From Oceanospirillaceae bacterium (GTDB lineage: Bacteria > Pseudomonadota > Gammaproteobacteria > Pseudomonadales > Balneatricaceae): a DNA stretch of 64,000 nucleotides. This document shows positions 2,753 through 64,000 of the stretch, piece by piece. How positions within the stretch are numbered: position 1 is the first letter of the stretch; every line of letters begins with the position of its first letter. The stretch lies in the NCBI GenBank assembly GCA_018647765.1, contig JABGSN010000009.1, positions 1 through 64,000 of the forward strand, in the 5' to 3' direction. The notes below the pieces were generated by a model, which was given only the letters and a program-made list of their open reading frames with translations, had not been told where the DNA came from and searched no databases. A program made the position numbers and the translations under genes.

Positions 2753-2792
2753 TCTTACCTGCTCATATGTAGGTTAGCTTCTGGTTTAGCTA

Positions 2793-2827
2793 AAGGCGTT
2801 AACTCTTTGAGTTAGCGCCTTTTTTTG
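2793..2827. terminator. Terminator between icd and the convergent methyltransferase gene
   Basis: The arms AGGCGTTAACTC and GAGTTAGCGCCT flank a TTT loop with one G-T mismatch. A run of seven T follows on the plus strand, with AAA before the stem for the other direction. It sits between two converging genes and probably serves both, more strongly icd. Confidence 0.9.
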
Positions 2828-2833
2828 CCCTTA

Positions 2834-3418
2834 TTAACGGACGCCAATGACCTGCACCACAGCGCCTTTGCCGTGGTGGCCACTGCCTTCATGGATATCA
2901 CGCACCACTTCTTGATTTAGGTCTAGGTATAGTGGATTGAGTTCGGTGGCTAGCTCTGAGCTTTGCATCATTAGCGCAGAGTTAGGTGGTCCGCCGGTTT
3001 TAAACTCCAGTTGCTTCGGCGTATAGGCCTCTAGTAGTAACACACCTCCAGCGGCAAGCGCTGTTGGTATGTTGCAGTGCACTTGACGCCGTAATAGCGG
3101 AGATAGGTGGCAAAAAATTGAAACGATACCGTTCCATTGGCCTTTGCCTAAGTCATAATCCGCTAGGTCTGCATGTACAGTGGCTACGGTTAGGCCTTTT
3201 TCGTATGCAAGTTTCTGAGTCTTTGCTAGTCCTACCTCAGAACTATCTACGGCGGTTACATGGTAGCCCAAACTGGCTAAGTAGACCGAGTTTCTACCTT
3301 CGCCGTCGGCCAAACACAAAACTTTTGATTTGGGTAGGCGCGCTGCGTTTAGTCGCAAAAAGTCATTGGGCTGGGTGCCGTATACGTAGTCTGGATTGGC
3401 GTAACGTTGATCCCACAT
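2834..3418 (-). CDS. Class I SAM-dependent methyltransferase (TehB/UbiE-like)
   Basis: This 194-residue protein has the Rossmann-type SAM fold. Motif I is seen as VLCLADGEGRNSVYLASLG (about residues 34-52), followed by the acidic end of strand 2 in VTAVDSSEVGL and a motif around DLADYDLGKGQWNGIVSIF. The N-terminus MWDQRYANPDYVYGTQPNDFL is typical of small TehB/thiopurine-type methyltransferases that act on small molecules or metalloid ions. The substrate cannot be read from sequence. It starts 3 bases after the rhodanese-like gene stop on the same strand, so the two are almost surely cotranscribed. That pairing suggests a role in sulfur or electrophile handling, which is inference. Confidence 0.85.
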   Translation of the reverse strand: MWDQRYANPDYVYGTQPNDFLRLNAARLPKSKVLCLADGEGRNSVYLASLGYHVTAVDSSEVGLAKTQKLAYEKGLTVATVHADLADYDLGKGQWNGIVSIFCHLSPLLRRQVHCNIPTALAAGGVLLLEAYTPKQLEFKTGGPPNSALMMQSSELATELNPLYLDLNQEVVRDIHEGSGHHGKGAVVQVIGVR

Positions 3419-3865: not shown

Positions 3866-5041
3866 CTAATCATCATAGCTTTTTTGGTAAACCTGTTGCG
3901 CTGCAGCGACTCCTGAGCCCAGCTTAATGTCATAACCTAAATCAGTCATCACCATCTCTGCGGTGGCAATACCCGCTAACGCCATTACATCGGTCATTGC
4001 GCCAAGGTGTCCTATGCGAAATAGTTTGCCTGCCATTTGCCCAAGACCGCCACCAAAAGATACGCCATAAGCCTTGTAAGCGTGTTGAGTGATCAGGTTC
4101 GCATCCTTGCCTTGTGGCACCATGATGGCCGTAACAGTATCCGAATAAAGGTCTGGGCTTTTAGCACACAGATCCAACCCCCATGCAGCTACAGCAGCCC
4201 TAACGCCCTCTGCAATGCGCTGGTGCCTTGCGTACACATTATCCATGCCTTCGTTAAGAAGTAGGCTTACACTGGCTCTTAGGCCGTTAAAAAGCTGTAC
4301 AGGCGGGGTGTAGGGGTAACTTCCAATAGCGTTGGCATTGGCCATGTCGTTAAAGTCAAAAAAACAGCGTGGGAGGGTTGCGGTTTTAGTTGCTCGCATA
4401 GCCTTGGGGCTGACGCCAACAATAGCCAAACCCGTATTCAACATAAAGCCTTTTTGTGCGCCGGTAATGACAATGTCTACGCCCCAATCGTCCATGCGGA
4501 ACTCCATACTGGCCAAAGAGCTAACCGCATCCACCATCAATAATGACTCATGATTGGCTGTGTTCATGACCTTACGCACACCATATACATCACTTTTTAC
4601 CGCTGTAGCGGTTTCGTTGTGGGTCACTAATACGGCTTTGATTTGTCCTTGTGTGTCCGCCGTTAACCGCCGGCCAAATTCTTCGATCGGCGCCCCGGTG
4701 CCCCATTCACAATCAACCACCTCGACGTCGAGACCAAACCGTTGGCAAAGATCGATCCAACGTTGGCTGAACATGCCGTAACGAGCAATAAGTACTTTAT
4801 CGCCAGGGCATAGGGTATTGCTGATCGCACCTTCCCAGCCACCGGTTCCGGTAGCTGAAAATAGTAATACTTGGCCCGTTTCTGTTTTAAAGACCTTTTT
4901 AAGGTCATTTAAAAGGGGGATGTAATGGTCTGCAAAGTCGGGTGCACGGTGATCAAAGTTGCTGATGTTCATAGCTGCTTTAAGTACATCAGGCGTGTTA
5001 GTTGGGCCTGGGATAAAAATTGGATTTTGATGTTGCATCAT
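3866..5041 (-). CDS. Class V aminotransferase, BhcA/serine-glyoxylate aminotransferase-like
   Basis: This 391-residue PLP enzyme belongs to the alanine/serine-glyoxylate aminotransferase group. Seen features are the N-terminal NPIFIPGPTNTPDVLKAAM, the GTGGWEGAISNTL region that binds the cofactor phosphate, LMVDAVSSLASMEFRMDDWG, and the Schiff-base lysine in TGAQKGFMLNTGLAIVG. The overall pattern is close to BhcA (L-aspartate:glyoxylate aminotransferase of the beta-hydroxyaspartate cycle) as I remember it. Such proteins are usually labelled serine-glyoxylate aminotransferase. It is divergent from an IclR gene, as bhcA is from bhcR, but bhcBCD are not in the window. I chose the ATG at 5041 because AAGGTGG is well placed before it; a GTG two codons earlier is possible. 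Confidence 0.85.
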   Translation of the reverse strand: MMQHQNPIFIPGPTNTPDVLKAAMNISNFDHRAPDFADHYIPLLNDLKKVFKTETGQVLLFSATGTGGWEGAISNTLCPGDKVLIARYGMFSQRWIDLCQRFGLDVEVVDCEWGTGAPIEEFGRRLTADTQGQIKAVLVTHNETATAVKSDVYGVRKVMNTANHESLLMVDAVSSLASMEFRMDDWGVDIVITGAQKGFMLNTGLAIVGVSPKAMRATKTATLPRCFFDFNDMANANAIGSYPYTPPVQLFNGLRASVSLLLNEGMDNVYARHQRIAEGVRAAVAAWGLDLCAKSPDLYSDTVTAIMVPQGKDANLITQHAYKAYGVSFGGGLGQMAGKLFRIGHLGAMTDVMALAGIATAEMVMTDLGYDIKLGSGVAAAQQVYQKSYDD

Positions 5042-5265
5042 TACCACCTTTGGTTACGTCAGTTTATATTGGTAGTTTGCTTTTTAATTTACTAATAAAC
5101 AATTTTTTTGAAAAATAATTCCATTTATAATTAAAATAATCAAATTATTGAAAATAAAGGTTATTTAATATTTCAAAAAAGATTATTACATGTTGTTGGA
5201 AAATTATAGTTGATAAGTTTTCTGTCTTATCGCTTAATACAATAATGAAAATTTTGGAGGTGTAA
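5042..5265. promoter_or_regulatory. AT-rich divergent promoter region, aminotransferase / IclR
   Basis: About 220 bases of strikingly AT-rich sequence separate the two divergent genes. This is the expected site for an IclR-type operator and for both promoters. Short inverted segments such as GAAAA...TTTTC around 5199-5222 occur, but none is clean enough to call. A GGAGG ribosome site at 5256-5260 sets the IclR start. Confidence 0.5.
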
Positions 5266-6081
5266 ATGGTGAATCACATAAAGCGTGGCCGTGGTCGCCC
5301 TAGAAGCGTCGCTGCTGAAGCTGGTAAATCAACCGTGCAAGCGCTAGATCGAGGTATCGCTTTGCTACAAACAATCGCTCAGCACAATGGCGTGAGCTTG
5401 AGTGATTTATCGGTGCAAGTGGGTATGCCAGCCTCTAGCGCACACCGGTTGTTGATGACCTTACAGCAACATGATTTTGTTGATTTTGATGAAAATACAC
5501 AACTGTGGCAAGTGGGTATTGAGGCATTTCGGGTGGGTAGTGCGTACTTGTCACGCAGTAATTTTATTGAAGCGGCGCAAGCACCGTTACGTCATTTGAT
5601 GGAAGTCACCGGTGAAACGGCTAATTTAGCGGTAATGGACAATGCTGAAGTCGTATTTGTGGCTCAAGTAGAAACGACAAACCCTATACGGGCCTTTTTT
5701 AGTGCGGGAACGCGCGCACTTATGCATTCATCAGGCATTGGTAAAGCCTTGCTTGCACAACTGCCGCGGCATAAGGTCGATGGTTTGTTAAAGACCGTTG
5801 GTTTACCCCAGTACACCAGCAAGACCCTGATTACTGCAAAGGACCTGTACGCCGATTTAGATCTCACTTCAGCCCGTGGTTGGTCGTTTGATGAGGAGGA
5901 ACGTTATATCGGTATGAGTTGTGTTGGTGCAGCAATCTGTAACGCCCACGGCGAAGTGGTGGGTGGCATATCGGTATCTGGGCCTAGTGTGCGTTTTGAA
6001 GCGCAACACATCGCCCTAATTGGTGCAAAAGTCACCACAGCGGCGCAACAAGTTACCTTGACGTTAGGTGGAAAAATATAA
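5266..6081 (+). CDS. IclR-family transcriptional regulator (BhcR-like)
   Basis: This 271-residue regulator has a basic tail (KRGRGRPRS), an N-terminal winged helix-turn-helix (about residues 24-90; QALDRGIALLQTIAQHNG and MPASSAHRLLMTLQQHDFV) and a C-terminal IclR effector domain (GTRALMHSSGIGKALLAQLP, and the late EERYIGMSCVGAAICN with a conserved Cys). It is divergent from the aminotransferase gene and so probably controls it. Known relatives such as BhcR sense glyoxylate. That this one does is inference from its neighbour. The GGAGG site six bases upstream supports the ATG used. Confidence 0.92.
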   Translation: MVNHIKRGRGRPRSVAAEAGKSTVQALDRGIALLQTIAQHNGVSLSDLSVQVGMPASSAHRLLMTLQQHDFVDFDENTQLWQVGIEAFRVGSAYLSRSNFIEAAQAPLRHLMEVTGETANLAVMDNAEVVFVAQVETTNPIRAFFSAGTRALMHSSGIGKALLAQLPRHKVDGLLKTVGLPQYTSKTLITAKDLYADLDLTSARGWSFDEEERYIGMSCVGAAICNAHGEVVGGISVSGPSVRFEAQHIALIGAKVTTAAQQVTLTLGGKI

Positions 6082-6103
6082 CCTGGGTGTTAGTTTGACA
6101 GGT

Positions 6104-6174
6104 GGATTGCTTCGCTGCGCTCGCAAAGACAACAGGATGCCTGGGCTTGTATGAGGCCCTGACTTTCGTCAGGA
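6104..6174. repeat. REP-like short hairpin sequences
   Basis: Two elements lie between IclR and ahcY. GGATTGCTTCGCTGCGCTC (from 6104) looks like the dispersed REP-type repeats common in proteobacteria. The hairpin CCTGAC-TTTC-GTCAGG at 6158-6173 has a close copy at 29422-29441 between ABC genes. They may act as transcription or mRNA-decay barriers for the converging genes. Two copies in 64 kb is modest support for a genome-wide family. Confidence 0.5.
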
Positions 6175-6185
6175 CCAGGTGTGCA

Positions 6186-7571
6186 TTAGTACTTGTAGCT
6201 TTCTGGCTTAAATGGGCCTTGAGCAGATACGTTGATGTAGTTGGCTTGGGTGTCGGTCAGCTTGGTCATTACACCGCCAAAACCTGCCACCATGTCGGCT
6301 GCCACTTCTTCATCTAGCTTTTTAGGTAATACTTTTAGCCATAGATTGGCTTGTTTGTCGGCGGCGCTTAGGTTGGCGAACTTGGCTTCCCATAGGTGCA
6401 TTTGTGCCAGTACTTGGTTGGCGAATGAGCCGTCCATAATGCGAGATGGGTGGCCTGTGGCGTTCCCTAGGTTAACGAGGCGTCCTTCGGACAAGAGGAT
6501 AACGAAGTTGCCTTTGTTATCACTCTGGTCGGCAGCGCGGTATACCTTGTGTACTTGTGGCTTAATTTCTTCAAACGCCCAAGTTTCACGCATAAATCCG
6601 GTGTCAATTTCGTTGTCGAAATGGCCGATGTTACACACGACTGCACCATTTTTAATGGTCTTGAGCATATTGGCGTCACACACATTGGTGTTGCCGGTCG
6701 TGGTAACGATAAGGTCAGTCGTGTCCATTATGGCTGTGTTGATACAGCTCACATCACCGGTGTTGTCGCCGTTTAGGTAGGGCGAAACCACTTCAAAGCC
6801 GTCCATGCAGGCTTGCATGGCGCAAATAGGGTCGATCTCGGTGACCCTTACGATCATGCCTTCTTGACGTAACGATGCAGCAGAACCCTTGCCTACGTCG
6901 CCGTAACCGATGACTAGGGCTTTTTTGCCGGCTAGAAGGTGGTCTGTGGCGCGTTTAATGGCGTCGTTTAGCGAATGGCGACAGCCGTATTTGTTGTCGT
7001 TTTTACTTTTGGTCACGGCGTCGTTAACGTTGATAGCGGGCACTTTTAAGGTGCCGGCTTCTAACATTTCTTGTAAACGGTGCACACCAGTGGTAGTTTC
7101 TTCAGAAATGCCGTGACAGTTGCCAAGGATTTCTGGGAACTTATCATGCAGCATTACCGTAAGGTCGCCGCCATCGTCTAGGATCATGTTAGCACCCCAG
7201 TCTTTGCCATCTTTAACGATGGTTTGCTCGATGCACCATTCGGCTTCGTCTTCGGTTTCGCCTTTCCAAGCAAATACAGGGATGCCTGCGGCGGCAATGG
7301 CTGCTGCCGCGTGGTCTTGAGTAGAGAAAATATTGCACGATGACCAGCGAACTTCGGCACCTAAATCTACTAGTGTTTCGATTAATACGGCGGTCTGAAT
7401 CGTCATGTGGATACAGCCCATGATTTTGGCATTGGCCAGAGGTTGTTGGGCAGCGTACTTGGTACGTAATGCCATTAGGGCTGGCATTTCGGTTTCGGCG
7501 ATGTCGATTTCCATGCGGCCCCAAGAGGCTAGGGAGATGTCGGCAACTTTGTAGTCTGTGAATGTGGTCAT
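6186..7571 (-). CDS. ahcY: Adenosylhomocysteinase
   Basis: This 461-residue NAD-dependent enzyme splits S-adenosylhomocysteine into adenosine and homocysteine and so relieves product inhibition of methyltransferases. Seen are the N-terminal [17 protein letters not shown], the substrate region [17 protein letters not shown], and the NAD-binding [17 protein letters not shown] (about residue 225). The C-terminus FKPESYKY is the usual lysine-tyrosine ending that reaches into the partner subunit's NAD site. The ATG at 7571 is preferred to the in-frame GTG two codons upstream, because the family starts near this point. It lies 43 bases downstream of hpaI on the same strand. A TATAAT at about 7607-7612 (minus strand) could give it its own promoter. 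Confidence 0.97.
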
Positions 7572-7614
7572 GGGCACGGCTTCCGTCAGGTAAAATTCAG
7601 AGCCGTATTATACG

Positions 7615-8415
7615 CTAATAGACGCCGGATTCCGACTCTGGCGCGTTGGTATTTTTGTATTGGGCTACCAAACTATCGGTGGCTTTAACGAAGCTGGTAA
7701 CGTCGGTGCCTACGGCGACAAAGGTGGCTCCGAGTTTTAGGTATTGTTGTACTAACTCTGGTACGGCCATAAGGATACCCGCGGCTTTACCAGCGGCAAC
7801 AATCTGTTTTATGGCGGCGCACACGGCCTGTTGCACAGGCTCGGCCGTGGGTAGGCCTAAATAACCCATGTCTGCGGCTAAATCAGCTGGGCCAATAAAT
7901 ACGCCATCGATGCCGTCTACGGTGAGTATTTTTTCTAGATTATCTAACCCGCGCTGGGCTTCAATCTGTATTAACAGGCACACTTGCTCATTGGCTGTTT
8001 GTAGGTAATCGGGGATGCGGTTATGGTGGGAAGCGCGTGCTAAAGCAGCGCCCACACCACGAATACCTTTAGGAGGGTAGTTTACGGCCTGCACCAGTTG
8101 CTTTGCTTGCTCTGCAGTTTCCACCATTGGCACCAACACGGTTTGGCAGCCGATGTCCAAGATTTGCTTCAGAATCCAAGCTTCACCCACTGGTGGGCGT
8201 ATGACCTTACTGGATTCAGAACCTTGTAAAGCGTGCATTTGACTTAATAGGCTAGTGATATCGTTAGGGCCGTGTTCGCCGTCAATTAATAGCCAATCAA
8301 AGCCCGCTCCACCGGCAATTTCCGCGGCGTTAGGGCTACCCATGCCTAACCAAAAACCAATCTGCTGTTGGCCGGCTAAAAGCTTTTGTTTAAACAGATT
8401 TATTGGTGCTGGCAT
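7615..8415 (-). CDS. hpaI: 4-hydroxy-2-oxoheptane-1,7-dioate aldolase (HpcH/HpaI family)
   Basis: This 266-residue class II metal-dependent aldolase is expected to split 4-hydroxy-2-oxoheptanedioate into pyruvate and succinic semialdehyde, the last step of the homoprotocatechuate meta-cleavage pathway. Visible family marks are FDWLLIDGEHGPND (about residues 39-52), VRPP-type IRPPVGEAWILKQILDIG, the metal ligand region LIQIEAQRGLDNLEKI, and VFIGPADLAADMG. The ATG has an AAGGAT ribosome site. It is the last hpa gene of the minus-strand operon, 43 bases after hpaH. The operon setting makes this assignment firmer than for an isolated HpcH/HpaI protein. Confidence 0.92.
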   Translation of the reverse strand: MPAPINLFKQKLLAGQQQIGFWLGMGSPNAAEIAGGAGFDWLLIDGEHGPNDITSLLSQMHALQGSESSKVIRPPVGEAWILKQILDIGCQTVLVPMVETAEQAKQLVQAVNYPPKGIRGVGAALARASHHNRIPDYLQTANEQVCLLIQIEAQRGLDNLEKILTVDGIDGVFIGPADLAADMGYLGLPTAEPVQQAVCAAIKQIVAAGKAAGILMAVPELVQQYLKLGATFVAVGTDVTSFVKATDSLVAQYKNTNAPESESGVY

Positions 8416-8458
8416 GGGTGATCCTTAATAAGTACTTCTAATTAACGTGGTGAACGGC

Positions 8459-9262
8459 TTAAAAACGGCAGCTTACTTGGCCAAAGTCACCGAAATCGGC
8501 TTCAATTAGCGTGCCAGACTTGGTTTCGATGGGGCGGATGAAGGAGCCGGAAAGTACAATTTCGCCTGCCTTTATACTATCACCATACTCATGTAAGCGC
8601 GCGGCTAGCCAAGCAATGCCTAGTGCCGGTTGGTTAAGTACGCCCGCACCTAAGCCAGTTTCTTCCACTTCGCCATCGGCACTGACAATAGCACCAATCC
8701 AACGCATGTCGACGTCTTTAGGGTCGGTGTGTTGCTTGCCCAACACTAAGCCAGCATTGGCCGCATTGTCGGAAATGGTATCCAATACATTACGCGCAAT
8801 ACCGGTCTCTGGGCACTGGCGATAAATGCGAGTGTCCAAAATTTCTAACGTAGGTACAAGGTAGTCAGTGGCTTCTATAACCTGCTCTACAGTGATGTTA
8901 GCCCCACCTAGGTCATGCTTCATGACAAAGGCAATTTCAGCTTCAACGCGGGGCTGAATAAAACGATTTTGAGGAATGGTGGAACCACTCTCAAACAACA
9001 TATCATCAAACAAAACGCCGGAATCTGGAATGTCTATGTTTAGTGCAGCCTGCATAGCTTTAGAAGTAAGGCCAATTTTATGCCCCACAACTCGGCGGCC
9101 ATGATTAAGCTTGTGTGCAACCCAGCCAGCTTGAATAGCATAGGCATCGTCCATGGTCATATTGTCATAAGCTAGAGACATTAAACCTGTTTGTGAACGG
9201 GTTTGTTCTGCATGGTCGAGGCGCTTTGCAGCGGTCTCGATCTGTTGACCAGTTAAAGCCAT
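8459..9262 (-). CDS. hpaH: 2-oxo-hept-4-ene-1,7-dioate hydratase
   Basis: This 267-residue protein is of the HpaH/MhpD hydratase family, which hydrates 2-oxohept-4-enedioate before the aldolase step. Characteristic stretches are MTMDDAYAIQAGWVAHKL, GRRVVGHKIGLTSKAMQ, PRVEAEIAFVMKHDLGG with the acidic metal ligands, and a C-terminal GEIVLSGSFIRPIETKSG. I place the start at the ATG 9260-9262, two bases after the hpaG stop and preceded by GAGG. The longer reading frame to 9292 would overlap hpaG and has no support. The intact frame and spacing show it is translated as part of the hpa operon. Confidence 0.93.
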   Translation of the reverse strand: MALTGQQIETAAKRLDHAEQTRSQTGLMSLAYDNMTMDDAYAIQAGWVAHKLNHGRRVVGHKIGLTSKAMQAALNIDIPDSGVLFDDMLFESGSTIPQNRFIQPRVEAEIAFVMKHDLGGANITVEQVIEATDYLVPTLEILDTRIYRQCPETGIARNVLDTISDNAANAGLVLGKQHTDPKDVDMRWIGAIVSADGEVEETGLGAGVLNQPALGIAWLAARLHEYGDSIKAGEIVLSGSFIRPIETKSGTLIEADFGDFGQVSCRF

Positions 9263-9264
9263 GC

Positions 9265-10137
9265 TTAAACCTCGTCCACTATGGTGTTGCATAGGCGGCC
9301 AATGCCTTCGGCTTCAATCTCAACCACATCACCTGGCTTCAAATAAACTGGTGGATCTAAACGCGCACCAGAGCCTGTAGGTGTACCGGTAACAATGATG
9401 TCACCAGGAGCAAGAGTGGTGAAGGTAGAAACGTAGTTGATGAGGTAGCGGAAGTCGAACATCATGCGTCCAGTACGGTCTTGTTGGCGCAACTCGCCAT
9501 TCACTTTGGTAGTGAGGCCGATGTCTGCAATTTGACTTTCGTCTTTATAAGCTACCATCCACGGGCCTATGGCACCGGTAGAATCAAAGTTTTTACCTTG
9601 GGTAACGTTGAACTTGGCGTGGCGCACCCAATCACGAAGGGTGCCTTCGTTACACAAGCTAATGCCAGCAATGTGGTCTAAGGCAGTTGCCTTAGGAATG
9701 TGACGACCACCCTTACCAATGATGATCACTACTTCGCCTTCGTAGTCCAACTGCTCAGAAGCCTTAGGGCGAATTAGAGGTGTATTGTGGCCAGTAAAGG
9801 AACGGGCAAAACGAATGAACATAGAAGGAAACGGAGGCGCTTCTTGGCCGTCTTTGTATTCTTCGTTACGGGCAGGATAGTTCACACCGATACAAATAAG
9901 TTTTTCAGCGTTGTCGATGGGGATCTGGTAGCTGATTTCAGCTTCCGTGAAATCATCCTGCTGGCCTTTCGCTGCTTCCGCTAAAGCGTCCAGTTGGTCT
10001 GCTTCAATGACGTGCTTTAAAGTAGGGTATTGTGCACCAAAGGTGTTGCTTAGGCAGATGAAGCCTGTGTCGGTAACAATACCGTAATGGCTTGTTTCGT
10101 TGGCCGTAACGGTGGCGAATTTAGGGTAATTGCTCAT
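9265..10137 (-). CDS. hpaG: Fumarylacetoacetate-hydrolase-fold decarboxylase/isomerase of the hpa pathway
   Basis: This 290-residue single FAH-domain protein fits the 5-oxopent-3-ene-1,2,5-tricarboxylate decarboxylase / 2-hydroxyhepta-2,4-diene-1,7-dioate isomerase role. Seen are ICIGVNYPARNEEYK, the metal-binding LDYEGEVVIIIGKGGRHI, and DIIVTGTPTGSGARLDPP near the C-terminus. In E. coli HpaG is a tandem duplication of about 430 residues. Here there is one copy only, so one protein would have to do both reactions or just one of them. It lies between hpaE (27 bases) and hpaH (2 bases) in one operon. The ATG has an AGGA ribosome site. Confidence 0.88.
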   Translation of the reverse strand: MSNYPKFATVTANETSHYGIVTDTGFICLSNTFGAQYPTLKHVIEADQLDALAEAAKGQQDDFTEAEISYQIPIDNAEKLICIGVNYPARNEEYKDGQEAPPFPSMFIRFARSFTGHNTPLIRPKASEQLDYEGEVVIIIGKGGRHIPKATALDHIAGISLCNEGTLRDWVRHAKFNVTQGKNFDSTGAIGPWMVAYKDESQIADIGLTTKVNGELRQQDRTGRMMFDFRYLINYVSTFTTLAPGDIIVTGTPTGSGARLDPPVYLKPGDVVEIEAEGIGRLCNTIVDEV

Positions 10138-10164
10138 GGTAGTTCCTGTGTCTTGTAAAATTAG

Positions 10165-11676
10165 TTATTTAGCCAACTGAGGGGGTTGGTGTCCGGCCAA
10201 GGCAAAGCTAATGTTCTTGGTTTCCATGTAGAAATCGAATGACCAATCACCGCCGTCGCGGCCAATGCCAGAGGCTTTAACACCGCCAAAAGGCGCAGGT
10301 AGGTGACGAGAGTTTTCAGAGTTAACCCAAATCATACCCGCTTCTAGTTGATCAGAAATAGCCCAGCAACGCTCAACGTTTTGGCTCCACAAATAGCCAG
10401 CCAAGCCATACTGGCTGTCATTGGCAATGGCTACAGCATCGGCATCGTCTTTAAACGGGATCGCTGTAAGTACGGGTCCAAAAATTTCTTCTTGCGCTAC
10501 ACGCATTTGGTTATTGGCTTGGGTAAATAGCGTAGGCTCAACATAACAGCCCGCTAGTTCAGCCACTTTTTTACCACCCGCGGCAATTGTTGCGCCGTCG
10601 GCTTTAGCCGCTTCGAAGTAGGACAGTACTTTAGCTTCGTGCTCTGGGTGAATCAGTGGGCCAATAACTGTATTAGGGTCTAATGGGTGTCCCACTTTAA
10701 TGCGCTTGGCGCGGTCGGCAACCATGGTACAAAAAGTGTCGTAGATGCTTTCTTCTACCAAAAGGCGTGAAGACGATGTGCAACGTTCGCCATTGAGCGA
10801 GTAGATCATAAAGGCTGCGGCGTCGGCGGCTTTTTCTAAATCGGCGTCAGCAAACACTAAAACCGGGTTCTTGCCACCTAGCTCAAAATGCGCACGCTTT
10901 AACGTGTCAGCGCCTTGCTTTTGGATCATAGAACCAGTGCGACTTTCGCCTACAAAGGAAATGGCTTTAATGAGTGGGTGCTCGGTAAGGGTTTTACCTG
11001 CGTCTTCGCCCATGCCGTTAACTAAGTTCCACACGCCTTTAGGCAGGCCTGCGTCCTCGGCAATTTGTACTAACAGGCTGGCGGTTAACGGCGAAAATTC
11101 CGCTGGTTTATGCACAATGGTACAACCGGAGGCTAGGGCCGGTGCAATTTTCCAAGTGGAGAGCATGAACGGCGTATTCCAAGGCGTAATGACGCCTACT
11201 GGGCCGATAGGGTAGCGTTTAGTAACGTTTACCTGACCTGGCGCATAAAGTGACTGGCCATCTTGAGCTTCTACGGCTTTGTCCGCAAAGAAGCGGAAGT
11301 TTGCGGCGCCCCTTAAGGCGGCTTTAGCCATAAACTTAATGGACTGGCCGGTATCAATACATTCCAGCAGGGCAATTTCTTGAGCACGGGTCTCAATGCC
11401 ATCGGCTACTTTATGAAGAATTTTTTGCCTTTGCTTGCCACCCATGGCTGCCCAAGGTGTGAACGCGCGATGCGCTGTTTCGACCGCTAGGTTGATGTCG
11501 GCAGCTTTGCCGTGGGCCACTTTAGCAAGGGGCTTTAGATCGATAGGCGATAAGCTCTGGAACCAGGTGTCATCTTGGGCCGGCACTTCTTGGCCATCAA
11601 TGTGGTTTAAAACGCCATTGTTAAACTGCGTTAAAAATTGCGCGACATCTTGTTTGTTCTGGGCAAAGCTACTCAT
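10165..11676 (-). CDS. hpaE: 5-carboxymethyl-2-hydroxymuconic semialdehyde dehydrogenase
   Basis: This 503-residue NAD-dependent aldehyde dehydrogenase oxidises the ring-cleavage semialdehyde of homoprotocatechuate. Seen are the NAD-binding GPVGVITPWNTPFMLSTWKI (about residues 156-175), the catalytic glutamate in RAHFELGGKNPVLVF (about 264-278), the catalytic cysteine in YSLNGERCTSSSRLLVEES (about 293-311), and EEIFGPVLTAIPF. Its start overlaps the hpaF stop by one base (TAATG), which shows translational coupling. The specific substrate is taken from operon context. As a lone gene it could only be called an aldehyde dehydrogenase. Confidence 0.93.
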   Translation of the reverse strand: MSSFAQNKQDVAQFLTQFNNGVLNHIDGQEVPAQDDTWFQSLSPIDLKPLAKVAHGKAADINLAVETAHRAFTPWAAMGGKQRQKILHKVADGIETRAQEIALLECIDTGQSIKFMAKAALRGAANFRFFADKAVEAQDGQSLYAPGQVNVTKRYPIGPVGVITPWNTPFMLSTWKIAPALASGCTIVHKPAEFSPLTASLLVQIAEDAGLPKGVWNLVNGMGEDAGKTLTEHPLIKAISFVGESRTGSMIQKQGADTLKRAHFELGGKNPVLVFADADLEKAADAAAFMIYSLNGERCTSSSRLLVEESIYDTFCTMVADRAKRIKVGHPLDPNTVIGPLIHPEHEAKVLSYFEAAKADGATIAAGGKKVAELAGCYVEPTLFTQANNQMRVAQEEIFGPVLTAIPFKDDADAVAIANDSQYGLAGYLWSQNVERCWAISDQLEAGMIWVNSENSRHLPAPFGGVKASGIGRDGGDWSFDFYMETKNISFALAGHQPPQLAK

Positions 11677-56812: not shown

Positions 56813-59254
56813 TTAAGCCTTAGGGCGTACACCTTTAGGGTCATAGAAGCCCCGCAGGCTAGCTTGGGCCGAATACCGCTTTAAGGCAATTTCGATCTCG
56901 AAGGTGGCCTTGGAAATACGAATAGGCGAAAGGTTGGGCGAGTTGACATAACCCATACCAATGGCACTGCCGAGCGCGTGGCCATACATGCCCGAGGTGA
57001 GGTAACCCACAATGTCGCCATTCATGATAATAGGCTCGTTATGAAACAACATGGCCTCTGTATTGTCTAGTTTAAACTGCACTAAACGGCGTTCAGTTCC
57101 GTTGGCCTCTAGTTGTTCTTTATAACCGTTGATGCCGATGAAATCACCTGCATCCGGTTTGGCAGCCCAGTTTAGGCCCGCTTCAAACAAGTTATCTTCT
57201 GGGCCCACATCGTGACCCCAGTGTACAAAGCCTTTTTCCATGCGAGCGCTGTTGACCGCATGCATACCCACATTGCGTATGCCAAAGTCGGCGCCTGCTG
57301 CCATTAATGCGCGGTAGACGGTGGTGGTATGTTGGGCCGGAATAAATAACTCCCAGCCTAACTCGCCCACATAACTTAACCGTTGCACCCACATACGTAC
57401 ACCAGCCACATCCATGACTTTACCCGTAGCAAACGGGAAGGCTTGATTGCTGAGGTCCGTAGCTGTCACTTTAGACAATACCTCACGTGCCATTGGCCCT
57501 TGGAGAGCAAGGCCGCCAAAGTTCATGCTGATGTCCCGTAGCAATACATCGTCTATGAGGCGGTGATTTAGGTGCCACCAGTCCCGTGAATGGGAGCTGA
57601 TGCCAGTAATCACCCAATAGGTGGTTTGGCCTGTGCGCACCACGGTAACATCGGCTTCGATGCCCCCTCGGGCGTTTAAAAAATGGGTATAAACCACTTT
57701 TCCCACGGGCACATCGATATTGCCTGAGCAGATATACTGTAAGTTTTTGGCAGCGGCGGGGCCTGTAACTTCAAACTTACCAAAAGAAGACATGTCATAC
57801 AGGCCCACACCCTCACGCATAGCCATGTGTTCTTGTTTGCTATTTTCAAACCAGTTGGGTTTGTTGTAACTGTACTCGTATTTGGCTTCTTGGCCGGGGT
57901 TAGCAAACCAGTTGGCACGTTCGTAGCCACATACTTCACCAAAACATGCGCCAGCTGCAGCTAATTCTGCGTGTAGGGGTGAGTGAATTTGATCACGCGC
58001 GGTTTCATACTGGTAAAACGGCCAGTGCATCGCGTACGTATGGCCTAAGGCTTCTGGAATTCGCTCTGCCACGTATTCGTCGTGTTGTTGGGCTGGGTGA
58101 TGACGACGTAAATCACATTCTGTGACGTCACCTGATGGGAAACCATCAATCATCCAGTCGGCCATAATTTTGCCAACACCGCCGCCAGCGCCAATGCCTT
58201 TGGAGTTCATGCCAGCGGCAATAAATAGCTTATCTACTTCTGACGTAGGCCCAAGCAAGTGTAAGTTGTCGTTGGTGAAACTTTCTGGGCCATTAAACCA
58301 GGTACGAATGCCGGTTGTTTCTAGCTGCGGAAAGGTGTCCATACTGTTCATAACGTAGGGTTCTACGTGATCTTGGTCACAAGGGAACTGGCCAAAACAG
58401 AAGTCGTCAGTAATATTGTCCATAGACATGCCTTTAGCATTGTCTTCAAACCAACCTATTAACATTTTACCAGCGTCTTCTTTGTAGTAAAGGCCGCGGT
58501 CATAGTCGCGTAATACCGGGCGTTGGCTTAGGCCTTCCATCTCTTCGGTAACAATATAGGAGTGTTCGCAGGTATATATGGGTAACTGCACACCCACAGT
58601 TTTAGCCAGATCACGGGTCCACATGCCGCCACACAATATCACCTGATCGACTTCCACTTTGCCTTTGTCGGTGCGGATGCCAGTGATCACGTTGTCCTTG
58701 GTCAGCAGTTCTTCCATGACGGTGTTTTCAAAAATTTCCACACCGTTCATGCGAGCACCTTTGGCCAGTGCCATGGTGGTGTCGATGGGGTTAGTTTGGC
58801 CGTCATCTGGCGTATATAGTGCGCCTAAAACGCCGTCGGTATTGATGCCAGGGTACAGTTCGGCTAAGCGGGTGTTGTCGATCATTTCTGATTCCACACC
58901 AAATACTTTGGCCATGGATGAGGTGCGTTTAATCTCTTCTAAACGAGCTTCAGTACGCGCCAGCGAAATACTACCAATCTGCTTGTAACCCGTGGCTTGC
59001 CCCGTTTCTTCTTCTAAACTTGCATACAGCTCGTGGCTGTATTTGGCTAGGTTGGTCAAAGTTGGTGTGGGCCATGATAGGCTGACTAGGCCTGCCGCGT
59101 GCCATGTGGTACCGCTTGTGAGTTGCTTGCGTTCAATAAGGATAACGTCTTTGATGCCACGTTTGGCCAAATGGTAGGCTACAGACGTGCCAATAATACC
59201 GCCACCGATAATGGCAATACGGGCTTTTTCTGGTAATACTTGGGTGTCGCTCAT
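56813..59254 (-). CDS. Dimethylglycine-dehydrogenase-like FAD oxidoreductase with GcvT domain (copy A)
   Basis: This 813-residue protein has an N-terminal FAD domain (RIAIIGGGIIGTSVAYHLAK and LTSGTTWHAAGLVSLSWPTP, whose His is the likely covalent FAD site), a central FAO domain, and a C-terminal aminomethyltransferase (GcvT) domain (about 430 onwards; GVGLYDMSSFGKFEVTGPAA, LSYVGELGWELFIPAQHTTT and RNVGMHAVNSARMEKGFVHW). Such enzymes oxidise an N-methyl group and hand the one-carbon unit to tetrahydrofolate. Candidate substrates are dimethylglycine, sarcosine or another methylated amine. ATG 59254 is chosen; an upstream TTG at 59272 is the only other option. It is the third gene of the MttB cluster. 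Confidence 0.9.
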   Translation of the reverse strand: MSDTQVLPEKARIAIIGGGIIGTSVAYHLAKRGIKDVILIERKQLTSGTTWHAAGLVSLSWPTPTLTNLAKYSHELYASLEEETGQATGYKQIGSISLARTEARLEEIKRTSSMAKVFGVESEMIDNTRLAELYPGINTDGVLGALYTPDDGQTNPIDTTMALAKGARMNGVEIFENTVMEELLTKDNVITGIRTDKGKVEVDQVILCGGMWTRDLAKTVGVQLPIYTCEHSYIVTEEMEGLSQRPVLRDYDRGLYYKEDAGKMLIGWFEDNAKGMSMDNITDDFCFGQFPCDQDHVEPYVMNSMDTFPQLETTGIRTWFNGPESFTNDNLHLLGPTSEVDKLFIAAGMNSKGIGAGGGVGKIMADWMIDGFPSGDVTECDLRRHHPAQQHDEYVAERIPEALGHTYAMHWPFYQYETARDQIHSPLHAELAAAGACFGEVCGYERANWFANPGQEAKYEYSYNKPNWFENSKQEHMAMREGVGLYDMSSFGKFEVTGPAAAKNLQYICSGNIDVPVGKVVYTHFLNARGGIEADVTVVRTGQTTYWVITGISSHSRDWWHLNHRLIDDVLLRDISMNFGGLALQGPMAREVLSKVTATDLSNQAFPFATGKVMDVAGVRMWVQRLSYVGELGWELFIPAQHTTTVYRALMAAGADFGIRNVGMHAVNSARMEKGFVHWGHDVGPEDNLFEAGLNWAAKPDAGDFIGINGYKEQLEANGTERRLVQFKLDNTEAMLFHNEPIIMNGDIVGYLTSGMYGHALGSAIGMGYVNSPNLSPIRISKATFEIEIALKRYSAQASLRGFYDPKGVRPKA

Positions 59255-59323
59255 AAAATTCTCGTTAGTCAAGGGCTCAGTTTGGCCCTTGAAGTGTTTA
59301 ATATTGTTTCTTTGTACTCTGTC

Positions 59324-61747
59324 TTAGCTGCGTAATAAGCTGTTATTTGGATTATACGCGGCGTCGAGTTCTACGTGGCAATGTCTTGTGCCAATAGAGG
59401 TCTCTACGGTGAGTGCCTGACCCGCATTACAGTGTTCGGGTTTTAGATAGGCAAAGGCTAAACTTTTTTGCACTCGATAGCCATAGGCACCGCCGGTGAT
59501 TATGCCCGTATGGTCACCATTAGCAAACACCGCTTCGTTACCAAAACATTCAGCGGGCACTTCGTCGTCAAACACCAAGTAGGCAAGCTGTAGTGCTAGG
59601 CTATCGGACTGGCGCTGGCGCATGTTGTCACTGCCAATAAAATCGCGGCTTAAATCTAAAAAACGATCCATGCCGGCTTCTAAAGCCGAAATTTCTTCGG
59701 TGAATTCAGCGCCATAGGCACGGTACATTTTTTCCATGCGCATGCTGTTAAAGGCACGAGTACCAAAGTCTCGTAAGCCTAACGGTTGGCCAAACTCCAT
59801 TAATGATTCATAAATAGAGATCAGCTGCCATACAGGCATGTGTAATTCCCAACCTAATTCACCGGCGTAAGACACACGCATGGCAAACACTGGCGCAGAG
59901 TCTAGCTGAATGGTTTGGCAAGCAAGCCATGGGAAAGCAGCGGTAGACAGGTCGTCTTCACAAATGTGTTCAAGGATTTCACGAGCTTTGGGGCCAGTGA
60001 GTAATAAACCGCCCCAATCTTCTGTGAAATCTTCTAAGGTGACGTCAAAATTACCTACATGTTGCTGCATCCACTGGAGGTCTTTGATTTGAGAACCAAT
60101 GGCACCCATTAATACAAAATGATCTTGGCTAATACGACTCACGGTTTGTTCGGCCATGATGCCGCCGTTTTTGGCATGGAAAAGCGTTAAGCTGATGCGC
60201 CCGTCTTTAGCAGGTAATTTGTTGCACGACAGGTGATCTAAAAATGCGTAGGCATCTGGGCCGGTGACACGGAATTTGGCAGTACCACTCACGTCGGTAA
60301 TACCACAGGTGTTTTGCACAGCCGCGCATTCTTCAGCTACAACTGCATGGGCCTCGTTGTGAGTCCAGCTATGGCTTTCACTGCGCACGGCGTCAGTTTT
60401 AAACCACGCAGGCTTTTCGTATCCAGCATGGGCAAAATGCACAGCGTCTTTTTGAGCCATCACTGTATGCAATGCACTAACACGGTTGGGGCGTCCATGA
60501 GGGCGATTTTCTGTAGGTGAACCAGCAGTGTACATATTTTCGTAGGATTCAATAGCACGGGTGATGCAGTAGTTTTTATCAGTCCAACGGCCAAATCGAC
60601 GACTATCAAGTGACGACATGTCTAGCTCTGTTTGGCCATGAACCATCCACTGCGCTAAATATTTACCAATGCCGCCTTGAGCAATACCAATAGAGGCACC
60701 TGTTAAATTCCAAAAGTTAGTTAGTCCCTCTGCTGGGCCCACTAAGAAGTTATCATCTGGTGTGTGGGTGATGGGGCCGTTGATGATGGTTTTAACCCCC
60801 ACTTCTTGGAACAATGGTACAAGTTCCATACAGCGATCAAGCCAAGGCATTAAGCGCACTAAATCACCAGCGAATAGCTCTCGGTCAAAGTTCCAATCCA
60901 TACCCTTGAGTGCCCAAGGTTTCGAACCACGTGTTTCATAAGGGCCCACCAACAAGCCATTGCCTTCTTGGCAAATGTAAGCCGATGCGGTGGAGTCTCT
61001 TGTGACTGGCATTTCTTTCACTAGTGCTGCAATATCTGGATGGTCTTCAGTGATTAGATATTGGTGTTCTAAGTTGATAATAGGTAGGTGTGCGCCGACC
61101 ATACGACCTACTTCTGGGGCAAAGCACCCGGCTGAGTTGACCACATGCTCAGCAATAATGTTGCCTTGTTCTGTGATGACTTCATAACCACCTTGAGGCA
61201 GTATTTTAATATCGATTACTCGATTAAAGCGGCTAATCTTAGCCCCGTTATCACGTGCCATTTGCGCTAAAGGCATGACCACCGAGGTTGGGTCTACTCG
61301 ACCATCATTAGGGGTGTATAAAATACAGCGAGCATCATCAAAATTCATCACAGGATTAATCGCTTTGGCCTCTTCTTTAGATACCCAGCGCATTTCACAG
61401 CCCACATTGTGAGCTTTACTCATAATGTTGCGAAACCATTGTTCCTCAAGCTCGGTATAACCTACGCGCAGGCTACCACACTTGTGGAAAGTAGATGCCA
61501 GGCCTGTTTTGGCGGGGATGACTCTATCGTACAAGTCCAGTGTGTAATTATGTATCTGAGATAAAGTGTGATTGCCGTTAAAATTAGGACATAGACCAGC
61601 AGCGTGCCATGTTGACCCACTGGTAAGCTCACCCTTTTCAATCAACACCACATCACTCCAACCTTCTTCTGTAAGGTGATACATAAGGTTAACGCCAAGG
61701 GATCCGCCGCCAATAATGACAACGCGTGCATGGGATTGTAGGGACAT
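59324..61747 (-). CDS. Dimethylglycine-dehydrogenase-like FAD oxidoreductase with GcvT domain (copy B)
   Basis: This 807-residue protein is a paralogue of copy A with the same domain order: FAD motif RVVIIGGGSLGVNLMYHLTE, the covalent-flavin segment LTSGSTWHAAGLCPNFNGNH, FAO middle, then GcvT (SGTAKFRVTGPDAYAFLDHL, VSYAGELGWELHMPVWQLIS, GTRAFNSMRMEKMYRAYGAE). It differs from copy A around the FAD segment and in much of the C-terminal half, so the two are likely to act on different substrates rather than being a recent duplication. It starts 12 bases after the mttB-like stop. Confidence 0.9.
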   Translation of the reverse strand: MSLQSHARVVIIGGGSLGVNLMYHLTEEGWSDVVLIEKGELTSGSTWHAAGLCPNFNGNHTLSQIHNYTLDLYDRVIPAKTGLASTFHKCGSLRVGYTELEEQWFRNIMSKAHNVGCEMRWVSKEEAKAINPVMNFDDARCILYTPNDGRVDPTSVVMPLAQMARDNGAKISRFNRVIDIKILPQGGYEVITEQGNIIAEHVVNSAGCFAPEVGRMVGAHLPIINLEHQYLITEDHPDIAALVKEMPVTRDSTASAYICQEGNGLLVGPYETRGSKPWALKGMDWNFDRELFAGDLVRLMPWLDRCMELVPLFQEVGVKTIINGPITHTPDDNFLVGPAEGLTNFWNLTGASIGIAQGGIGKYLAQWMVHGQTELDMSSLDSRRFGRWTDKNYCITRAIESYENMYTAGSPTENRPHGRPNRVSALHTVMAQKDAVHFAHAGYEKPAWFKTDAVRSESHSWTHNEAHAVVAEECAAVQNTCGITDVSGTAKFRVTGPDAYAFLDHLSCNKLPAKDGRISLTLFHAKNGGIMAEQTVSRISQDHFVLMGAIGSQIKDLQWMQQHVGNFDVTLEDFTEDWGGLLLTGPKAREILEHICEDDLSTAAFPWLACQTIQLDSAPVFAMRVSYAGELGWELHMPVWQLISIYESLMEFGQPLGLRDFGTRAFNSMRMEKMYRAYGAEFTEEISALEAGMDRFLDLSRDFIGSDNMRQRQSDSLALQLAYLVFDDEVPAECFGNEAVFANGDHTGIITGGAYGYRVQKSLAFAYLKPEHCNAGQALTVETSIGTRHCHVELDAAYNPNNSLLRS

Positions 61748-61759
61748 AATAATTTCCTC

Positions 61760-63301
61760 TTAACGGCCGATTTGTTCACGGCTAAGTTTAATGTAAAATT
61801 CTTCACGAATTGCCAAATCAGCGGCATCGTCGATGTGTTTGGGGAAGTAGCTGGCTAACAGTTCTTTCTTTTTCTTGATGGCTTTATCTAACAGTACTGG
61901 TTTGCCGAGTTCTTCCCATACATTGGGGCTGCTGCGGTCGCCAAGATCGGGGTAAATGTATTCGCTTTGCATCACCGATAGAGTTTGCTCGGAACCTAAA
62001 TAATGGCCTTTACCACTCATACAGACTTCATTGATGACATCAAAGCTCAAGGAGTTTTCATCCACCTTAATGCCTTTGGTCATACGCATACAGGCACCGA
62101 GTACATCGTTGTCCATCAATAGGCTTTCTGGGCAAGCGCCCATCAAGCTGGCGTACATGCCTGCAGATTCGTATACCACGTTGGCTCCCGCCATAGCGGC
62201 TGCAGCTGCGGTGTAACCGCGTTCGGCACCGGCTTGATAATCGGGGAACTTGGCGTCGGTCATGCCACATGCAGTGCCAGTGGGCAGATCAAAATAATTG
62301 CCCATTTGCACACAAGCGGCCGACAAAATACCTTGCTCAGGCGATCCGCCACTCATCGCACCGGTACGTAAATCAGACACAAATGGCCAAGTCCCGATTA
62401 TAGTGGGTGCACCGGCCTTAATCGCATTCACATACACCAACCCACCTAAACATTCAGCCCATGCTTGGGACACCGCACCCGCCAAAAGAGCAGGTGAGGT
62501 AGCGCCAGCTTGACCTGCTGAAAGCAACAAAATAGGCATGCCACCTTCTACACCTACGCGCAGGCATTCGAGTGACTCCTCGGCAAAGTTCATGGGTGGC
62601 ACCACAAAACAGTTAGACATGCTCACAAAAGGACGTGCCCGCCATGCCTCTTCACTACCGGCAAAATGGTGTAGCATTTTTAATCCATCTTCCACGTGCT
62701 CAGCCTCGGTAAAGCTGGTGCCAATGTGTTTGCTGTTGCCAATCACCGATGTGTACAGGGTATTGAGGTCCATGGTTTTCGGGTCATCTATATCGCGCAA
62801 TACACACATACGCTGGAACATATGAATATGCTCGCAGGTGTCGGCAATACGCGCCATGTCGTACAAATCTTGGCTAGTGGAATTACGATAGGTGTTGTTT
62901 TCTGGATCGGCCACATGCACCGCAGCCCCAGCGGTAGAAAAATGCACACGCTGACCATTGAGCTCTAGGTCATGTTTAGGGTCTACGCCATGGAGTGTGA
63001 GGTTGCGCTGACAAATGTCTAAAGTGTGGTCTACCAAACTACGAGGAATCCGTAAACGGCCATCGTCACCCATGATGGCGCCAGCGGCGACCATAGTTTT
63101 TGTACAATGGGGCGTTGAGCGGCCAAAACCAATCTCTTCTAAAATACGGTAGGCATTGTTGGCGATGGAGGCCATGTCGGTTTCTGACAGTGGAGCAAAT
63201 GTACCACCAATTTCACCTGCATGAACGGGTTTTTCTTCTTCTGCTAACGGCGCTAGGCGCTCTGCTAAACGGGCCTGGCGGCCTCCAGATCGACGTGACA
63301 T
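61760..63301 (-). CDS. MttB-superfamily methyltransferase, non-pyrrolysine
   Basis: This 513-residue protein belongs to the trimethylamine methyltransferase (MttB) family. Seen are the basic N-terminus SRRSGGRQARLAERLAPLAE, RILEEIGFGRSTPHCTKTMV, SCSN-like PFVSMSNCFVVPPMNFAEES, and the barrel segment GATSPALLAGAVSQAWAECL. The frame is complete with no in-frame TAG, so it is not a pyrrolysine enzyme. Non-Pyl members demethylate quaternary amines such as glycine betaine, proline betaine or carnitine. They pass the methyl group to a corrinoid protein, none of which is encoded here. It is the first gene of a three-gene operon with the two flavoproteins, divergent from a GcvA-like LysR. Confidence 0.9.
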   Translation of the reverse strand: MSRRSGGRQARLAERLAPLAEEEKPVHAGEIGGTFAPLSETDMASIANNAYRILEEIGFGRSTPHCTKTMVAAGAIMGDDGRLRIPRSLVDHTLDICQRNLTLHGVDPKHDLELNGQRVHFSTAGAAVHVADPENNTYRNSTSQDLYDMARIADTCEHIHMFQRMCVLRDIDDPKTMDLNTLYTSVIGNSKHIGTSFTEAEHVEDGLKMLHHFAGSEEAWRARPFVSMSNCFVVPPMNFAEESLECLRVGVEGGMPILLLSAGQAGATSPALLAGAVSQAWAECLGGLVYVNAIKAGAPTIIGTWPFVSDLRTGAMSGGSPEQGILSAACVQMGNYFDLPTGTACGMTDAKFPDYQAGAERGYTAAAAAMAGANVVYESAGMYASLMGACPESLLMDNDVLGACMRMTKGIKVDENSLSFDVINEVCMSGKGHYLGSEQTLSVMQSEYIYPDLGDRSSPNVWEELGKPVLLDKAIKKKKELLASYFPKHIDDAADLAIREEFYIKLSREQIGR

Positions 63302-63393
63302 AGTGGTTTTTCCATGTGGTTGTTGTGGGCCAAAAACAGGCTAATTTTTAACTTAAATTACGATCGATACAATTGATTATTTTTATGGATATG

Positions 63394-63410
63394 GATTAGA
63401 ATAACTAATC
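63394..63410. promoter_or_regulatory. CTAAT-type palindrome, mttB-like / LysR divergent region
   Basis: GATTAG-AATAA-CTAATC is a perfect 6-bp-arm inverted repeat. GcvA in E. coli is known to recognise CTAAT, and the adjacent LysR gene is GcvA-like, so this is its likely site. It lies 31 bases before the LysR ATG and 93 before the mttB-like start. Confidence 0.65.
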
Positions 63411-63440
63411 TAAAATTCGATCTGTGAATGAGCTTAATTA

Positions 63441-64000
63441 ATGGCTAGAAAATTGCCCCCACTCAATAGTTTGCGCGCTTTCGAAGCGGCGGCTAGGCAC
63501 CTGAGCTTTACCCGTGCTGCCGACGAGTTATGCGTGACCCAAGCAGCGATTAGCCATCAGGTGAAAGGCTTAGAAGATTACCTAGGCCACCAGTTGTTTG
63601 AGCGCCTACCACGAAACCTAACGCTCACCAGTCAAGGGGCAGCTTTGATGCCTGTATTAGCGGATGTGTTTGACGACATGGCCAACGCGGTTGCTAGCCT
63701 CAAGCAGGAGAAAGTGGGTTCGTTACTTAATGTACGCTTAGCACCCTCCTTTGCAGCAAAGTGGTTGTCGCCTCGGCTGAAGCAGTTTTGGCAACTTTAC
63801 CCAGAAATTCACCTATGTTTATTTCATGCCCACAATGCGGTCGATTTTGAACGTGAAGATATTGACTTAGCCGTGACCTACGGTCGTGGGGACTGGAAGG
63901 GTGTCGAAAGTACTGCTATCGTTACACTGGATTTTTTCCCAGTAGCAAGCCCAACATGGTTGGCTAATAACGGGCCTATTAGTGAACCAGAGCAGCTACT
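63441..64000 (+). CDS. LysR-family regulator, GcvA-like, cut by the window edge
   Basis: The first 186 residues are present. The N-terminal winged helix is clear: LPPLNSLRAFEAAARHLSFT, RAADELCVTQAAISHQVKGL, EDYLGHQLFERLPRNLTLTS. The start of the substrate domain follows with LNVRLAPSFAAKWLSPRLKQ and DIDLAVTYGRGDW. This pattern is typical of GcvA. It reads away from the mttB-like operon and probably controls it. The rest of the gene lies beyond the window. Confidence 0.92.
   Translation, partial: MARKLPPLNSLRAFEAAARHLSFTRAADELCVTQAAISHQVKGLEDYLGHQLFERLPRNLTLTSQGAALMPVLADVFDDMANAVASLKQEKVGSLLNVRLAPSFAAKWLSPRLKQFWQLYPEIHLCLFHAHNAVDFEREDIDLAVTYGRGDWKGVESTAIVTLDFFPVASPTWLANNGPISEPEQL

Follow-up and report, generated by a model that had tools for sequence, protein, structure and literature searches.

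How does a methyltransferase of the MttB superfamily dispose of its methyl group when its gene stands beside two flavoprotein genes and not beside the genes of a corrinoid system? The question is raised by a 64,000-nucleotide stretch of DNA from an Oceanospirillaceae bacterium (contig JABGSN010000009.1, here C28; the whole stretch is called the window), at one end of which an MttB-like gene is followed by the genes of two dimethylglycine-dehydrogenase-type flavoproteins, FP2 and FP1. Corrinoid-system genes were not found in the window at the Pfam sensitivity used, and the original prediction, made from the letters alone, had seen in this a possible sign of an unusual or distant methyl acceptor. 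With a probability of roughly 75%, the operon would instead serve as an input cassette, specific to one substrate, of a B12-dependent MtgC/MtgD module whose genes lie in another part of the genome. As methyl acceptor, an ordinary MtgC supplied in trans is the most likely candidate, because the module genes lie on contig C38, because mtgC stands behind the same type of mttB in relatives, and because RamA-type genes co-occur with it across genomes.

The region consists of the following features, in window coordinates:

61760-63301, minus strand: MttB-like gene (513 aa), matching PF06253 at 369 bits against a cut-off of 25
59324-61747, minus strand: FP2, dimethylglycine-dehydrogenase-type flavoprotein with a GcvT half (807 aa); DAO, FAO_M, GCV_T and GCV_T_C above cut-off
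56813-59272, minus strand: FP1, dimethylglycine-dehydrogenase-type flavoprotein with a GcvT half (819 aa); DAO, FAO_M, GCV_T and GCV_T_C above cut-off
63441-64000, plus strand: GcvA-type LysR gene, running past the window end to C28:64319; HTH_1 and LysR_substrate
63394-63410, plus strand: palindrome GATTA-N7-TAATC in the gap between LysR and mttB, a probable LysR-type operator
59269-59292, no strand assigned: inverted repeat at the FP2-FP1 junction, T-rich on the plus side only

The MttB-like gene, the two different flavoprotein genes and the divergent GcvA-type LysR gene all lie where the original prediction had placed them, with Pfam or NCBIfam matches above cut-off. The gaps on the shared strand are 12 nt between mttB and FP2 and 51 nt between FP2 and FP1, and because these gaps are short and counterparts of FP2 and FP1 stand behind mttB in relatives, it is a fair inference that the three genes are co-transcribed. 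FP1 may begin at ATG 59254 (813 aa) in place of TTG 59272, since this is where its relative in locus L084 starts, in which case the FP2-FP1 spacing becomes 69 nt. The inverted repeat at this junction does not look like a clear operon terminator, as there is no T-run on the operon's downstream side. Terminator-like matches in the region numbered 4 against 8.4 expected from shuffles, and a promoter scan of the operon region gave nothing above shuffles.

The MttB-like protein is a member of PF06253, the MttB superfamily, and scores 194 bits against the solved glycine betaine methyltransferase and 163 bits against the solved trimethylamine methyltransferase, while remaining below the TIGR02369 cut-off (324.6 bits against 525). 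Its coding sequence runs through with no internal stop, and its Met347 occupies the aligned position of residue 334, an X in the solved trimethylamine methyltransferase, which PMC9842639 names as Pyl334; the protein is not of the pyrrolysine type, as had been predicted. The genome (2.49 Mb in 68 contigs, with an estimated completeness of 100%) contains seven PF06253 genes, on C54, C16, C49, C68, C56, C28 and C7, five of which score 624-762 bits, the divergent two being that of the window and that of C7 (352 bits). A quickly built tree of 70 proteins (SH-aLRT support, no bootstrap, L103 forming a long branch) splits a window/C7 group of 41 rows from an MtgB-like and related group of 29 rows with an SH-aLRT of 100, and places the window protein with those of L138, L143, L146 and L170 in one 16-row clade, also with an SH-aLRT of 100. 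MtgB itself is outside this tree and the link of the 29-row group to it rests on score; by its placement, the window protein is outside the MtgB-like group. Alignment columns 125, 163, 164, 264, 268, 310, 349 and 377 are among those that differ between the two groups. Of the columns that vary little or not at all within the window group, G125 is mostly Y in the MtgB-like and related rows, Q264 is L in 28 of the 29, T268 is M in 25, D310 is S in 26, D349 is A or G in 26, and Y377 is L in 24. E283, D354, Q356, H433, T440 and W462 are common to both groups and belong, together with N374 and G381, to a set of 16 positions, several of which are conserved across both. In a structure model of the protein the mean pLDDT is 68.9, and values are below 50 in the region of the active site and the dimer loop.

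Genome-wide, B12-binding_2 and RACo_C_ter matches occur on C38 only, and Pterin_bind matches on C38 and C39, in keeping with the earlier observation that the window, on C28, lacks corrinoid genes. On C38, MtgC-, DUF1638-, MetF-like, MtgD- and RamA-type genes form one run on one strand, followed by folD- and glyA-like genes (judged from sequence starts alone). The B12-binding protein of this run has MtgC as its best NCBIfam match and its Pfam domain above cut-off, the RACo/RamA-type activase matches PF14574 at 303 bits, above the Pfam cut-off, and the pterin-binding methyltransferase (MtgD-type) exceeds its NCBIfam cut-off. The genome thus has MtgC, MtgD, RamA and DUF1638, as named from Pfam domains and the top NCBIfam match of each protein, and on C54 a betaine--homocysteine-methyltransferase-type (MtgE-type) gene, above cut-off, adjoins mttB. 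A corrinoid system elsewhere in the genome, which by the original prediction would make this ordinary MttB chemistry if it is co-expressed with the operon, is thus encoded on C38.

The relatives of the window protein associate with the same components. We surveyed 369 genomes of the window's class, scoring up to four PF06253 candidates per genome, so that copy numbers are lower bounds, and in 15 of them a protein matched that of the window at E <= 1e-60. Of these 15 genomes, which carry the window/C7 type, 14 have a RamA-type gene, compared with 11 of the 354 others (Fisher p 8e-18, uncorrected for kinship), and a stand-alone MtgC, 77-100% identical to that of the window's genome, occurs in the same 14. 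When any PF06253 gene is counted, the RamA-type gene is found in 20 of 22 genomes against 5 of 347 others, the two exceptions being G340 (71% complete) and G342. In a separate scan of named genomes, a relative is encoded in at least 587 of 595 candidate stretches, and the best 80 of these loci, mostly from metagenome bins and including near-duplicates, were compared. In four of the 80 (L138, L143, L145 and L146), mtgC lies directly behind a window-type mttB on the same strand, the MttB proteins being 67-70% identical to that of the window. With the starts of the longest open reading frames (ORFs), a gap of 1 nt separates the two genes in L138 and an 8-nt overlap joins them in L146, and the downstream proteins of both loci have B12-binding domains above cut-off. 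In L144, L158, L170 and L186, mtgC is found less than 2 kb upstream of mttB on the same strand, and 13 of the 80 loci contain it somewhere. This linkage points to MtgC as the acceptor for window-type MttB proteins.

The neighbourhood comparison, which had likewise been proposed with the original prediction, also showed the flavoprotein genes to be recurrent. A GcvT-flavoprotein gene lies within 8 kb of mttB in 58 of the 80 loci and two or more do so in 36, the corresponding figures being 34 and 26 among the 38 loci whose flanks extend for 6 kb or more in each direction. An FP2 counterpart (60-89% identical) is directly behind mttB in 25 of the 80, with an FP1 counterpart (59-64%) next in 8, and in alphaproteobacterial loci (e.g., L179, L181 and L190) two flavoproteins are upstream of mttB. 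Both flavoproteins pass the family domain test for dimethylglycine dehydrogenase/oxidase with all four domains. FP2 scores 577 bits and FP1 460 bits against the human dimethylglycine dehydrogenase chain 5l46, in alignments spanning nearly the full length, and FP1 scores 356 bits against N,N-dimethylglycine oxidase 1pj5. The WHAAG-motif histidine, the covalent flavin adenine dinucleotide (FAD) ligand in mitochondrial dimethylglycine dehydrogenase, is matched in the alignments by His58 in FP1 and His48 in FP2; for FP1 and FP2 the covalent FAD link is a prediction. Asp541 of FP1 aligns with residue 552 of 1pj5, a place held by Glu533 in FP2 and likewise by Glu in the human dimethylglycine dehydrogenase.

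From these elements, a three-step route can be proposed on sequence grounds. The MttB-like protein would demethylate a quaternary N-methyl compound once and load the methyl group onto Co(I)-MtgC, which the RamA-type protein would maintain in its active state and from which MtgD would pass the methyl to tetrahydrofolate. FP1 and FP2 would then oxidatively take off the next two N-methyl groups, and their GcvT halves would trap these as methylene-tetrahydrofolate, so that overall a trimethylammonium compound would be converted to a primary amine. The presence of two demethylating oxidases beside one methyltransferase suggests that the substrate has three N-methyl groups. It is plausible, as the original prediction had it, that a quaternary amine is demethylated and that tetrahydrofolate finally accepts the one-carbon units; the further idea of that prediction, an unusual acceptor, finds no support, given the corrinoid system on C38 and the mtgC genes behind the same mttB type in relatives.

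Several observations weigh against the proposal of an input cassette for the MtgC/MtgD module. On C38, the MtgC-type protein reaches 213 bits against an NCBIfam cut-off of 370, the RamA-type protein 99 bits against 500, and the MetF-like gene gives a weak MTHFR match of 19.9 bits against a cut-off of 24. Among the 80 loci, mtgC was not seen in 67, many of them short, and a flavoprotein gene was not seen within 8 kb of mttB in 22. In L146, a carnitine 3-dehydrogenase gene and related genes lie upstream of the mttB-mtgC pair, which would suit glycine betaine as the substrate. Finally, G342 (98% complete, 1% contamination) possesses a single PF06253 gene of the window/C7 clade (L102, G342:C27:1-12000, positions 1630-3132, minus strand), while neither a RamA-type gene nor a stand-alone MtgC was found in this genome, its sole MtgC match being a 1273-aa MetH-like frame. 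This exception may reflect a gap in the bin, a gene that is no longer functional or a different use of the protein fold.

G342 and the constant GcvT-flavoprotein neighbourhood could also be taken to mean that the methyl bypasses corrinoid proteins and reaches an unusual acceptor, such as tetrahydrofolate in a GcvT half by direct transfer. We consider this very improbable, since mtgC is directly behind the same mttB type in the four loci described above, the RamA-type gene accompanies it in all but one of the 15 genomes, and the module is complete in the window's own genome; moreover, the G342 protein, with 41% identity to that of the window, belongs to the C7-like and not to the window type, and a flavoprotein gene was not seen in the 12 kb of its locus that were inspected. 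Equally slight is the chance that the window/C7 clade as a whole works without a dedicated corrinoid protein and activase, the methyl passing to tetrahydrofolate directly or via a GcvT-type partner, with MtgC borrowed in some lineages and G342 as a survivor. That mttB and the flavoprotein genes might be neighbours without a shared function is suggested by the 22 loci lacking a nearby flavoprotein gene and by the inverted repeat at the FP2-FP1 junction. The 12-nt mttB-FP2 gap, the FP2 counterparts directly behind mttB in 25 loci, and the persistence of the association despite the altered gene order of the alphaproteobacterial loci make such a coincidence highly doubtful.

A more serious competitor, which is nevertheless unlikely, is a glycine betaine route in which the MttB-like protein would be a second MtgB, FP2 would act on dimethylglycine, and FP1 would convert sarcosine to glycine. 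Two dimethylglycine-dehydrogenase-type proteins would suit dimethylglycine and sarcosine, the score of FP2 against dimethylglycine dehydrogenase is high, and the L146 carnitine 3-dehydrogenase (711 bits, cut-off 592) is accompanied upstream by a keto-acid-cleavage-type gene, with similar genes in L148. However, a substrate other than glycine betaine is more likely, because the same genome encodes MttB_C54, which is far closer to known MtgB and scores 432 bits against the solved glycine betaine methyltransferase, where the window protein scores less than half of that. The C54-type and window-type mttB genes coexist within each of six loci (L144, L165, L171, L172, L178 and L192), the alignment columns differ between the two MttB groups, and the genome already has a sarcosine oxidase alpha gene, complete and above cut-off on C49, as well as parts of another. 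In Ruegeria pomeroyi, SPO2108 and SPO2134 are the two PF06253 proteins reported to increase on glycine betaine (PMC12478193), whereas its window-type homologue (46% identical) is encoded on the megaplasmid.

Other candidate substrates were considered and set aside, and our literature search found no description of a substrate for the window MttB clade. An inositol or sugar link came into question, as L136 has an inositol-type cluster close to mttB and a sugar-type cluster is the other neighbour of the window operon, but such genes are rare across the 80 loci, and most of those in the operon's own stretch (L026) recur in 1-3 of them. For beta-alanine betaine, a methylmalonate-semialdehyde dehydrogenase gene is directly upstream in L134 and L141, with homologues in only 8 of the 80 loci. 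The sole hint of taurine betaine is that the R. pomeroyi homologue stands beside an Xsc-like gene below cut-off. No link of homarine to the window mttB was seen; according to one paper, Mgd takes part in the homarine pathway.

One of the closest known systems is MtgBCDE, a glycine betaine methyltransferase/split methionine synthase of R. pomeroyi and further marine bacteria (PMC12478193), with which the window's genome shares a PF06253 protein, separate MtgC, MtgD, MtgE, RamA, DUF1638 and MetF-like components, and several PF06253 genes for one MtgC. It differs in that the window protein is outside the MtgB clade and that the operon genes are distant from mtgC. The same paper notes up to seven PF06253 genes per genome and proposes that many such proteins feed one B12 module, several being taken to share a single MtgC; the present genome matches that maximum. 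As a separate observation, the related genome G265 has 25 first-look PF06253 candidates (four of them scored) and two RamA-type matches. In Eubacterium limosum, specific MttB-family enzymes such as MtpB, MtcB and MtyB use one shared corrinoid protein (PMC8604678). The arrangement proposed here, with one methyltransferase per quaternary amine and a common corrinoid protein, would resemble theirs, except that E. limosum is an anaerobic acetogen, whereas the window operon has oxidative flavoproteins beside mttB. With dimethylglycine dehydrogenase/oxidase, the flavoproteins share their domains, the aligned WHAAG histidine and, in FP1, Asp541, and they depart from it as two tandem paralogues with mttB and by Glu533 in FP2. 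On the R. pomeroyi megaplasmid (L213, 7953-18249), a LysR gene, a PF06253 gene, a class III aminotransferase gene, two GcvT-flavoprotein genes and a gene for an Xsc-like enzyme stand in a row. A divergent LysR gene, the PF06253 gene and two flavoproteins with GcvT halves are common to both operons, while the aminotransferase and the sulfoacetaldehyde-acetyltransferase-like gene, both below NCBIfam cut-offs, are additional; judged from its genes, the megaplasmid operon might convert an N-methylated amine into an aldehyde.

Control of the window operon is probably exerted by the divergent GcvA-type LysR protein via the intergenic palindrome. The full protein (292 aa), complete in the extended stretch L026, scores 341 bits against the NCBIfam GcvA subfamily model (cut-off 288). 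GATTA-N7-TAAT occurs in 13 of 16 aligned LysR-mttB intergenic regions, or in 12 of 15 without one duplicate record (L084 and L154 are the same record stretch), against 0.05 expected from shuffles; L146 was excluded from this count, as its LysR ORF overlaps mttB. The 10-base form has two matches in the window against 0.06 expected, the second one inside FP2, and the full palindrome was not found upstream of five other mttB genes of the same genome. The half-site CTAAT is presumably that of E. coli GcvA.

Further features of the genome concern the other mttB genes and related functions. The oxidoreductase neighbours of its PF06253 genes are an FMN oxidoreductase on C49 and GcvT flavoproteins on C16, C56, C28 and C7. 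On C7 (L020, C7:2000-20000, positions 5035-10987), mttB is found with one GcvT-flavoprotein gene and with FrhB/FdhB-type, HutD-like and LysR genes, and the pairing of the C7-type flavoprotein and mttB is retained in L098, L099 and L101. The second sarcosine oxidase alpha gene is present as two complementary parts, at C8:2-1711 and C47:10291-11562. At C9:2896-4616, a BCCT transporter match extends across two overlapping frames at the 3' end, perhaps owing to a frameshift or an assembly error.

As chemistry, the operon is probably of a known kind and not new, the window protein representing a separate MttB clade within a known type of system. Methylated osmolytes sustain much of the marine bacterial community, and as this clade is widespread and carries a two-flavoprotein partner set, an entire group of marine genes would be assigned at the same time once its substrate is identified.

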